The translations under genes and the position numbers were made by a program. Below, piece by piece: positions 46,462-49,765 of a DNA stretch of 64,000 nt. This DNA comes from Longibacter salinarum (lineage in GTDB: Bacteria; Bacteroidota; Rhodothermia; Rhodothermales; Salinibacteraceae): the NCBI RefSeq assembly GCF_002554795.1, contig NZ_PDEQ01000005.1, positions 1 through 64,000 on the forward strand, written 5' to 3'. Below the pieces are notes generated by a model. That model searched no databases, had not been told where the DNA came from, and was given only the letters and a program-made list of their open reading frames with translations. The first letter of the stretch is position 1. Each line of letters begins with the position of its first letter.

Positions 46462-46605
46462 TTTAAGATCTGAGTTCGCTACGCTCTCTCTCGCAATCCT
46501 GCTGAATGCTCGCCTGCTCAAGGCGATTCGTCCAGAAACAGAACTGTCTTTCAACATTCGATCACTCTGGCGCTACGTCCACCTGAGCCGACGCTACCTC
46601 TTGAT

Positions 46606-47193
46606 ATGTATGAAGGATTCCGAGCCGTGCTTAGCGACCTCCTTCCGTCGCTAACAGCCGCGGACTGGACACAAGTCAAACGTCTCGTATCCCCTCGCAA
46701 GCTGTCGGTTGGAGAGTCGCTCGTGCGCGAAGGACACGCAGGCCACCGAGTCGCTTACATCTACCGTGGAGCCGTTGTCTACTACACGCTACGAGATGGA
46801 GAGCGCAATGTCCTCGGCTTCGACTTCGAGGATAGCTTCGCAGGAGATTTCCGCAGTTTCTTTGATGAAGTCCCGGCGACGAAAACGGTGACAGCGTTAG
46901 AAAACTGTGAGGTTCTGGTGCTTACCCGTGCACACTTTGATGAACTAGCCGAAGCCAACCGAGACTTCCGTTCCGTTCGGTCGAGAATGGCAGAAGAACT
47001 TTTTAGAGGCGCCGAGACGCGCGCGGTCGAGATGCAGTCTTTCTCGGCAGAAGAACGGTATCGCCGCTTGCTGGACCGTAGCCCGCATTTGCTTCAACGC
47101 GTCCCACTATATTTGCTGGCGTCGTACATCGGGGTCACCCCAGAGGCACTGAGCCGCATTCGACAGCGACTCAGTGCCAGTGATGACCAGTGA
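46606..47193 (+). CDS. Crp/Fnr-family transcriptional regulator
   Basis: 195 residues. A cyclic-nucleotide-type beta-roll (about 10-115, with VGESLVREGHAGHRVAYIYRG) and a long dimerisation helix (about 115-140) precede the winged helix-turn-helix, which ends with VPLYLLASYIGVTPEALSRI. The recognition helix shows E180, S183 and R184, the E-xx-SR pattern that in E. coli FNR reads TTGAT half-sites. Only one Cys (101) is present, so no Fe-S cluster of the FNR type is expected; the signal is unknown. A TTGAT-like palindrome lies upstream of the convergent neighbour. Confidence 0.9.
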   Translation: MYEGFRAVLSDLLPSLTAADWTQVKRLVSPRKLSVGESLVREGHAGHRVAYIYRGAVVYYTLRDGERNVLGFDFEDSFAGDFRSFFDEVPATKTVTALENCEVLVLTRAHFDELAEANRDFRSVRSRMAEELFRGAETRAVEMQSFSAEERYRRLLDRSPHLLQRVPLYLLASYIGVTPEALSRIRQRLSASDDQ

Positions 47194-47203
47194 CTGCGTC
47201 GGA

Positions 47204-47830
47204 TCAAAATTTGTAAAGTAAAGATGCGTTGGGGAAGACGCCGAGGTCATGAGCAGCATGCGTCTTCTTCGCACCATCCGCACCGAAAAAGACACGCTCA
47301 TCATTTTCGAGTGTACTCGCTACATTGGGCCAGAACCGGAGCGTTAAGTCTAGGCCGAGATTCCGGTAGATTGGTTGATGATAGTTGAGCGCCGGACCGA
47401 TCGAGAACGTCGTGTAAGCAAACGCCTTGCCCTGGGGAGGTGTCACCTCATAACGGTGTGCCTTCAACTCGACCCGAAGGTCAAACCGCCACGGCAATCG
47501 GTAGCCGATTCCAAATCCGGTGGTCCAAGGACTGTACACGTCGAGATTCTGATCTCGCTCCGTACGGGTTCGGCCCACACGGTCGTAGCTCAACCATAGG
47601 CCGTGTGAGTATTCGAATACCCACCGACCGGTCGTATAGGCAATCGCGAGGTTGGCTCCGCGGAGAAGAACCGGTTGTGAGAGGCCTGCTTTCAGCGCGA
47701 AAGAGGCTTGGTTTCGTCCCGTATCTCGCTGGGATACGTCTTCTGTCGGGCGGCTCACCTGAGCATTTGCCGCCGAATAGAGGGACACACCCAGAAGGCA
47801 AAGACAGATGTAGAAGGGTATGCTTTTCAT
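47204..47830 (-). CDS. Outer-membrane beta-barrel-like protein
   Basis: 208 residues from the ATG at 47830, the start of a signal peptide (MKSIPFYICLCLLGVSLYS, cleaved after ANAQ). The mature part shows alternating hydrophobic/aromatic strands (GYRLPWRFDLRVELKAHRYEV, split by turns) and ends in LLYKF, a C-terminal Phe as in outer-membrane barrels. Function unknown. It is convergent with the Crp/Fnr gene, 10 nt apart, and has the FNR-type box 69 nt before its start codon, so it is the likely target of that regulator. Confidence 0.75.
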   Translation of the reverse strand: MKSIPFYICLCLLGVSLYSAANAQVSRPTEDVSQRDTGRNQASFALKAGLSQPVLLRGANLAIAYTTGRWVFEYSHGLWLSYDRVGRTRTERDQNLDVYSPWTTGFGIGYRLPWRFDLRVELKAHRYEVTPPQGKAFAYTTFSIGPALNYHQPIYRNLGLDLTLRFWPNVASTLENDERVFFGADGAKKTHAAHDLGVFPNASLLYKF

Positions 47831-47898
47831 TGGTGATGCACTGCTGTCGATGAGAAAAATTGTCATCAACAGTCTAGCGCACGACCTCCGTGATCGCA

Positions 47899-47912
47899 TT
47901 GATCTAGATCAA
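47899..47912. promoter_or_regulatory. FNR/Crp-type operator, perfect palindrome
   Basis: TTGATCTAGATCAA is an exact match to TTGAT-N4-ATCAA. The centre is about 75 nt upstream of the start codon of the outer-membrane protein gene, which is a usual place for activation or repression, and the gene for a matching regulator is convergent next to it. Confidence 0.65.
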
Positions 47913-48192: not shown

Positions 48193-49062
48193 CTAGTCCG
48201 ATCGGACGTGCCGGAGCTTTTCGGGATTCAGAACGGCGAAGAGCCGGTCGATTTGACCGTTGTTGCTACGAAAGACCCAGACGCTCTGCAGGTCGTCTCC
48301 GTAATGGACGGCGAGCCCGGCCTCCCCGTTGACAGTCACATGCTCCAGACGCAAATCGGAAGGCGCTTTACCGACGAGGCCCATGAGAAATCGAGTGATT
48401 CGGTCTCGTCCGTAGATCGGGCGCAGGGCTGCGGTCACCTCGCCGCCGCCATCGGAATACGAGATTGCGTCTTCGGCCAGCAGCGTGCCCACACGCTCGG
48501 GGTCACCGTCCTCAATAGCCTCAACGAAGGCGTGAACCAGCGCCTCCTGTTCATCGCGTGATGTGCTGAATCGCCGATTACGGTCGCCTACGTGTTCGCG
48601 AGCCCGCTGGGCAATCTTTCGGCAATGCGCGGGCGAGCGGTTGACGATGCTCGCGACGGTCGTGTAGTCAATATCGAAGCCTTCGCGGAGGACGAAGACG
48701 GCGCGTTGCACCGGTGTCAGCGCCTCCAGCACAACGAGTAACGCCACAGACAGCGCCATGTCGGTCTCCACGGACGGTGGTACTGCTCCACGTTCTGCAA
48801 CAAGGGGAGCGGGCAGCCACGGACCGGCGTACTCCTCCCGCTGCTGTCTCGCCGATTTCAACTCATCGAGGCACAGGCGGGTAACCACCGTCGTGAGATA
48901 CGCCGGCGGATTCTCTACTGTCGCCGGGTCGACCTCATGCCAGCGAAGGTAGGCGTCCTGCACGACATCCTCTGCGGCCGCAACGGTGCCGAGCATTCGA
49001 TACGCCAGGCCAAACAGCCGGTCGCGCTGATCTTCGAACAGATCGGTCGTGTCAGGCTGCAT
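48193..49062 (-). CDS. ECF41-group RNA polymerase sigma factor with SnoaL-like C-terminus
   Basis: 289 residues from the ATG at 49062. Sigma region 2 (about 8-75, FGLAYRMLGTVAAAEDVVQD) and region 4 (about 108-160) are joined by the ECF41 linker motif WLPAPL (82-87). The fused SnoaL-like domain carries DGGG (204-207) and NPEKL (279-283), both hallmarks of the group. No anti-sigma gene is nearby, as expected, because the C-terminal domain controls activity. The start overlaps the partner gene by 11 nt, pointing to coupled translation. It directs transcription of the partner gene in known cases. Confidence 0.93.
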   Translation of the reverse strand: MQPDTTDLFEDQRDRLFGLAYRMLGTVAAAEDVVQDAYLRWHEVDPATVENPPAYLTTVVTRLCLDELKSARQQREEYAGPWLPAPLVAERGAVPPSVETDMALSVALLVVLEALTPVQRAVFVLREGFDIDYTTVASIVNRSPAHCRKIAQRAREHVGDRNRRFSTSRDEQEALVHAFVEAIEDGDPERVGTLLAEDAISYSDGGGEVTAALRPIYGRDRITRFLMGLVGKAPSDLRLEHVTVNGEAGLAVHYGDDLQSVWVFRSNNGQIDRLFAVLNPEKLRHVRSD

Positions 49063-49651
49063 GGCGAGCCGGGGTAGCCTCGATGTCGGAGCGGATCGCG
49101 CACAGCTTGTCGGACCCAATATTGAGCGGGCGATTCAGCAGGTTGTAGTAGTTTTCCATCGCGTTCAGCCACGTGAGTTCGGCAATAGCCCGGTCATCGA
49201 AATGCGTTCGCAGAGCATCGAACGTCGCGTCGGTCACAGATGTCGAACGGGTCGCCTCCTCGACGTAGACCAGGGCAGCGCGCTCACGGGGCGAGAAGAC
49301 GTCACTCGTCTCATACTGTAGCAGTGCATCGTATTTTTCGATCGAAATCCCCTGGTCTTGTGCGCTCGCCTGGGCGATATCGATACAGAATGAGCAGCCG
49401 TTCAGCGTCGCGACGTAGCTCTTGATTAAGAAGCGGAGTTCCGGATCAATGGACAACTGCTTCTCCGTGGCATTCATCTTCTGAGCTACGGAGGCACTAC
49501 CGGGTACGCGTGCATTCACCACCTTGACGGGCGTAATGACACGACCAAGCGTCCGTTTCGTGATCCAGTAGACGAGACGCATCCACCACGAGTCGGGGCG
49601 GTCGATCGGTTCTAGACGCGGCGCTTCAGACGAGGCATTCACTTCAGTCAT
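49052..49651 (-). CDS. Carboxymuconolactone decarboxylase/AhpD-family protein (ECF41 partner)
   Basis: 199 residues from the ATG at 49651. It is an alpha-helical AhpD-like protein with the redox motif CSFC (in NGCSFCIDIAQ). The His that follows four residues later in AhpD is Ala here, so the proton-relay chemistry differs or is lost. The last 11 nt overlap the sigma-factor start. In the ECF41 group the adjacent gene is usually such a carboxymuconolactone decarboxylase, oxidoreductase or epimerase and is the sigma factor's target. Its substrate is unknown. Confidence 0.88.
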   Translation of the reverse strand: MTEVNASSEAPRLEPIDRPDSWWMRLVYWITKRTLGRVITPVKVVNARVPGSASVAQKMNATEKQLSIDPELRFLIKSYVATLNGCSFCIDIAQASAQDQGISIEKYDALLQYETSDVFSPRERAALVYVEEATRSTSVTDATFDALRTHFDDRAIAELTWLNAMENYYNLLNRPLNIGSDKLCAIRSDIEATPARHAA

Positions 49652-49765
49652 CGTGGGACATGGGTTTTCGAAAGCAGTCGGCGAAAGCATCACAGAAGTG
49701 ACGAATCAGCCGAAACCCACGTGACGCCCCATGCACCACATCACAAAACCGTTACGATACCGTGT

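Follow-up and report, generated by a model that had tools for sequence, protein, structure and literature searches.

A Crp/Fnr-family regulator, a predicted FNR-type operator and a convergent outer-membrane barrel gene in Longibacter salinarum

The genes and the box between them

The window, by which we mean the whole 64,000-nucleotide stretch of Longibacter salinarum DNA analysed here, carries at 46606-47193 on the plus strand the gene for a 195-aa regulator of the Crp/Fnr family. The protein has a sensor domain with the cNMP-binding fold (Pfam PF00027, 47.5 bits against a cut-off of 27.5) followed by a short winged-helix DNA-binding domain. The C-terminus reaches 13.9 bits with Pfam HTH_Crp_2, which is under the cut-off; the short HTH aligns with that of PDB 3dn7 and others. 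The AlphaFold model (pLDDT 94) has helices at 168-175 and 179-193 and predicts a Crp/Fnr-type fold with high confidence. The recognition helix is P-E-A-L-S-R, with the codons for E180 to R184 at 47143-47157 (plus strand), and from its sequence it is predicted to read TTGAT/ATCAA. An earlier note on this DNA, made from the letters alone, had placed E180, S183 and R184 in this helix, and the translation agrees. These three residues and P179 are invariant in an alignment of 14 regulator homologs.

The earlier note also gave the regulator a single Cys and argued that it could not hold an FNR-type Fe-S cluster. C101 is the only cysteine in the 195 residues, and there is no cysteine cluster to supply the four ligands of an FNR-type [4Fe-4S] centre. 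The single Cys rules out an Fe-S FNR and supports the argument. By eye, the phosphate-binding cassette of CRP (Arg82-Ser83 type) is not evident in the aligned stretch FAGDFRSFFDEVPATKTV, and the protein scores 23.8 bits against the NCBIfam CRP equivalog, where the cut-off is 266. Neither of the genome's two other proteins with a cNMP-binding domain has an HTH, which speaks against another Crp/Fnr protein as the reader of the box discussed below. A profile search found no protein of the genome that passes the HTH_Crp_2 cut-off either, so the regulator is the only Crp/Fnr transcription factor evident in this organism.

Convergent with the regulator gene lies the predicted target, a minus-strand gene at 47204-47830 for an outer-membrane protein (OMP) of 208 aa with a signal peptide and a predicted 8-strand beta-barrel. 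Its stop codon is at 47204-47206, and the 10 nt between the 3' ends of the two genes are as first reported. The structural model has 8 strands at low confidence (pLDDT 62), its best Foldseek matches are all outer-membrane barrels (OmpA/OmpX/Ail/NspA, E about 1e-4), and the sequence ends ...LLYKF with the C-terminal aromatic residue; it has the marks of an outer-membrane beta-barrel. Searches of Pfam and NCBIfam returned no named family for it. Directly upstream of the OMP promoter, at 48193-49657, are two further minus-strand genes, one coding for a sigma factor of the SigJ/ECF type whose C-terminus is a SnoaL-like domain (TIGR02957, 339.6 bits), the other for a carboxymuconolactone-decarboxylase/AhpD-like protein. 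We take this arrangement to resemble ECF41-type loci.

The predicted operator is the palindrome TTGATCTAGATCAA at 47899-47912, which fits TTGAT-N4-ATCAA with 0 mismatches. The mechanical start of the OMP reading frame, at 47899, overlaps it. The conserved start that goes with the signal peptide is the ATG at 47830, so the box is intergenic and lies 68 bp upstream of the gene. A pattern scan confirms that the window has no other exact palindrome of the FNR type; allowing up to 2 mismatches gives 17 matches, about what chance predicts (15.3). The exact palindrome occurs at only 3 places in the 4.4-Mb genome. One of the two others falls within scpA (C1:501442), the second within an acyl-CoA dehydrogenase gene (C7:213820), both genes named from their translations, which leaves the window box as the only one that is not in an obvious gene. 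A site with one mismatch at 46601-46614 overlaps the start of the regulator's own gene. It is not conserved, and we reject it as an autoregulatory site and take it as chance. The pattern TTGATCNNGATCAA with at most 1 mismatch is found at 19 places in G000, the genome of the window (1 for a reversed control pattern), most of them inside ORFs; this excess perhaps comes from codon usage or from the abundance of GATC.

The pair and its homologs across Bacteroidota

The regulator is present at 60% identity or more in 3 of 100 relatives (G000, G001 and G003), and the OMP in the same three and no others of the 100. The two relatives that keep the gene pair have regulators 97% and 62% identical to the window's, and the 62% ortholog, from Longimonas halophila (NZ_PDEP01000009.1), is the only one divergent enough for its conservation to be informative. 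Loss of the palindrome from such relatives had been proposed as the way to refute its role. It is retained in both: the exact palindrome stands at the same place in G000, G001 and G003, with the plus-strand spacers CTAG, TTCG and CCGG. The shared form, TTCTTGATC-NNN-ATCAATG, agrees at 17 of 19 positions between G000 and G003, better than any other 19-mer upstream of the gene, and 30 shuffles reached 14 at most.

The pairing reaches well beyond these genomes. A search with the OMP only found homologs in 7 of the 245 genomes of the class and, in a sample of 394 genomes from the phylum, in 4 more. In all 11 a Crp/Fnr gene adjoins the OMP gene or, in L198 and L200, is one gene away. The regulator precedes its target co-directionally in the distant pairs, whereas the window pair is convergent, so the linkage has outlasted rearrangement. 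At L198:2167-2682 and L200:812-1450 the gene between regulator and OMP also encodes a signal peptide and is apparently another OMP.

At least 479 relatives of the regulator were confirmed, and this regulator type is common in Bacteroidota. We surveyed 80 homologous loci, nearly all from Bacteroidota, picked by protein similarity alone. An FNR-type operator is associated with these regulators: the exact TTGAT-N4-ATCAA box is present at 32 of the 80 loci (the other 48 have no exact box), while each of 39 control palindromes of the same composition is present at 4 or fewer and the same half-sites with other spacers at 6 or fewer. De novo enumeration of 5-base palindromes with gaps of 0-8 leads to the same site, which ranks first (23 of 66 regulator flanks) with an extension of itself as runner-up. 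As a rule the box is found after the regulator's stop codon and ahead of the start of the following gene. When the regulators are grouped by residue 180, 24 of the 87 E-type ones have it nearby, against 0 of 12 V-type and 0 of 7 Q-type, a difference that, with such numbers, is suggestive. The V-type regulators (TDVHLSR/TEVSLSR; L008-L011, L013, L014, L021, L023, L024 and L028) are related proteins with no FNR box; we tried them as a second helix class with its own site, and no clear operator emerged in 12 loci.

The genes next to the box are of many unrelated kinds, including short-chain dehydrogenases (SDR), cupins, DinB-like and SnoaL-like proteins, an OYE-associated Rossmann protein and outer-membrane proteins. 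Such diversity favours the idea that the regulator uses the box but serves a wider gene set through degenerate sites, with the OMP gene as one minor target. Degenerate boxes such as TTA-N6-ATCAA seem to be functional, and a few of the genome's sites with one mismatch may fall between genes. However, only a single exact box lies outside a gene, and the OMP is linked to a regulator in all 11 genomes where we found it. We also looked for a wider regulon among the near-matches and rejected it: sites with at most 1 mismatch are frequent and mostly inside ORFs, and they have no evident shared targets. We consider the idea possible but rather unlikely, and we prefer to see the OMP gene as the regulator's dedicated target.

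Promoter spacing and the recognition helix

The -7 element of Bacteroidota promoters is TAnnTTTG, located at -12 to -5 (PMC9723704). We selected nine promoters of the survey for the absence of a second box, so their counts should be read alongside those of the tandem class. In 7 of the nine, TTTG begins at exactly 26 bases past the box, and the remaining two have the near-match TTTA at the same position; none of 20000 shuffles gave such agreement at any offset. The ten tandem loci have a second, weaker box (TTA-N6-ATCAA type) 8-9 bp after the perfect one. Here it is the second box that keeps the distance: TTTG follows it by 26 bases, and the -7 element by 22 bp, in 9 of the 10, the exception being L063. 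The tandem operators were seen at L066, L092, L094, L097, L107, L108, L113, L127, L131 and L063. A -7 octamer that starts 22 bp after the box places the box centre at -41.5. This is the class-II activator position, well established for FNR and CRP.

The window promoter follows this geometry less completely. Its predicted -10/-7 element, TAGACTGT at 47869-47876 on the minus strand (TAnnnT, here TAGACT), lies 22 bp from the box, as does TACTCTGG in Longimonas. The TA is in register and the TTTG of the Bacteroidota consensus is absent, so the core promoter is only a prediction and its start site a guess. Given this spacing, and with the -7 box of Bacteroidota at -12 to -5, we would put the start at 47864 (minus strand), with the box centre at -41.5. 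A scan of the region with the Sigma-70 consensus found no promoter.

It could be argued that the regulator, once on the box, keeps RNA polymerase out and so represses the OMP gene. A box that touches the -35 region could occlude the polymerase, and the sign of regulation is not readable from sequence. Yet the spacing to the -7 element is exactly 22 bp over many unrelated promoters, which is the geometry of a class-II activator, while repressor sites are usually variable in position. At several loci another box stands 22 bp, or one step, further upstream, an arrangement typical of activators too. We regard repression as improbable and activation as the better reading of this geometry.

The recognition helix provides a natural series. 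Six distant OMP-linked regulators have Q in place of E180 (PQSLSR), and TTGAT-N4-ATCAA is found at 0 of their 6 OMP loci. All 6 carry TTA[AC]CA-WW-TGTGAA, set 22 bp ahead of where the -7 element falls, an operator that we recognised after the fact, by inspection, from these 6 loci. At the distant E-type OMP loci L198 and L200 the site is TTAAC-N4-ATCAA, 23 and 22 bp from the -7 element respectively, which keeps the ATCAA right half. Across the OMP-linked loci, E is accompanied by ATCAA and Q by GTGAA in 11 of 11. The six Q-type regulators are one clade and may represent a single change. In a tree of 84 regulators, built by a quick method, the OMP-linked ones fall in about four places, and they may still have a single origin. 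A causal reading of the match between E/Q and operator is supported by Rodionov et al. 2005, who reported that the helix position in question, 181 by CRP numbering, correlates with the operator across the family (PMC1274295).

That the palindrome is a chance match or serves some other function (a different transcription factor, a pair of GATC methylation sites) is very hard to believe: about one exact match is expected by chance in 4.4 Mb, two others do sit in genes and GATC-containing near-matches are common in the genome, as the 19 places show, but the box is kept with a changed spacer in Longimonas, is borne out by the 80-locus survey and by its covariation with the helix, and our search of the genome found no other HTH-bearing Crp/Fnr protein to read it.

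A proposed module and its known relatives

We believe it quite probable, arguing from sequence, that the locus is a dedicated module of a regulator and an 8-strand barrel, in which a Crp/Fnr regulator free of Fe-S probably activates the adjoining OMP gene from a class-II position. The regulator, having no Fe-S cluster, would bind TTGAT-N4-ATCAA at 47899-47912, presumably as a dimer. Once bound it would activate, rather than repress, the convergent barrel gene, the box taking the place of a -33/-35 element at -41.5, 22 bp from the -7/-10 element. A ligand of the cNMP-fold domain may set its activity. At the sequence level we consider the box itself, its uniqueness and conservation, the gene linkage, the fixed spacing and the helix/operator covariation to be established. 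At that level, too, the arrangement of regulator, box and neighbour recurs with other target genes around homologous regulators across Bacteroidota. The earlier prediction of regulator, operator and target appears stronger for the homolog survey, the fixed promoter spacing and the matching change of helix and operator.

We lean, with some reserve, towards a single rule for a large group of Bacteroidota Crp/Fnr regulators. The neighbour gene would be activated from an operator exactly 22 bp from the -7 element, residue 180 (E, Q, perhaps V) would set the operator, and one sub-group would be nearly obligately paired with an unnamed family of outer-membrane barrels. If the rule is true, the targets of these regulators can be read from genome sequence. 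Once tested, such a rule, which leads from the helix residue through the operator to the gene next door at a set promoter distance, would allow targets to be assigned to a large number of regulators in one step. The gene pair would then also offer a clean natural series in which protein and DNA coevolve, and the signal that induces the barrel family would become testable.

FNR-type operators and Crp/Fnr regulators free of Fe-S are already known. We found no operator described for these Bacteroidota regulators in the literature, a search limited to open papers and weak as evidence of absence. Escherichia coli FNR has the same E/S/R recognition-helix residues, the TTGAT-N4-ATCAA operator and the class-II geometry predicted for the window. 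It differs in the N-terminal cysteine cluster that holds its [4Fe-4S], where the window regulator has a single Cys. The window OMP is, like OmpA, OmpX, Ail and NspA, a predicted 8-strand barrel with a signal peptide, but it is only 10-15% identical to them, its model is of low confidence and it belongs to no named family.

The closest solved relative of the regulator by far is PDB 3dn7, a 'cyclic nucleotide binding regulatory protein' that the family profile matches at E=3.7e-48 and that shares the ASYLG-TPE-LS helix. Its record, as returned, gives neither function nor operator. DNR, NnrR and HcpR (PMC1274295) also have the Crp/Fnr fold and lack the FNR cysteine motif, and the operator of DNR is of FNR type, TTGATnnnnATCAA, following helix positions 180/181 in CRP numbering (Rodionov et al. 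2005, PMC1274295). Their targets are nitrogen-oxide or hcp genes, whereas the predicted target in the window is an outer-membrane barrel; the window regulator differs further in its P-E-x-L-S-R helix and in an HTH under the Pfam HTH_Crp_2 cut-off. What seems new beside these systems is an operator with fixed spacing for a Bacteroidota group, its near-obligate link to an unnamed barrel family and a natural E/Q specificity series.
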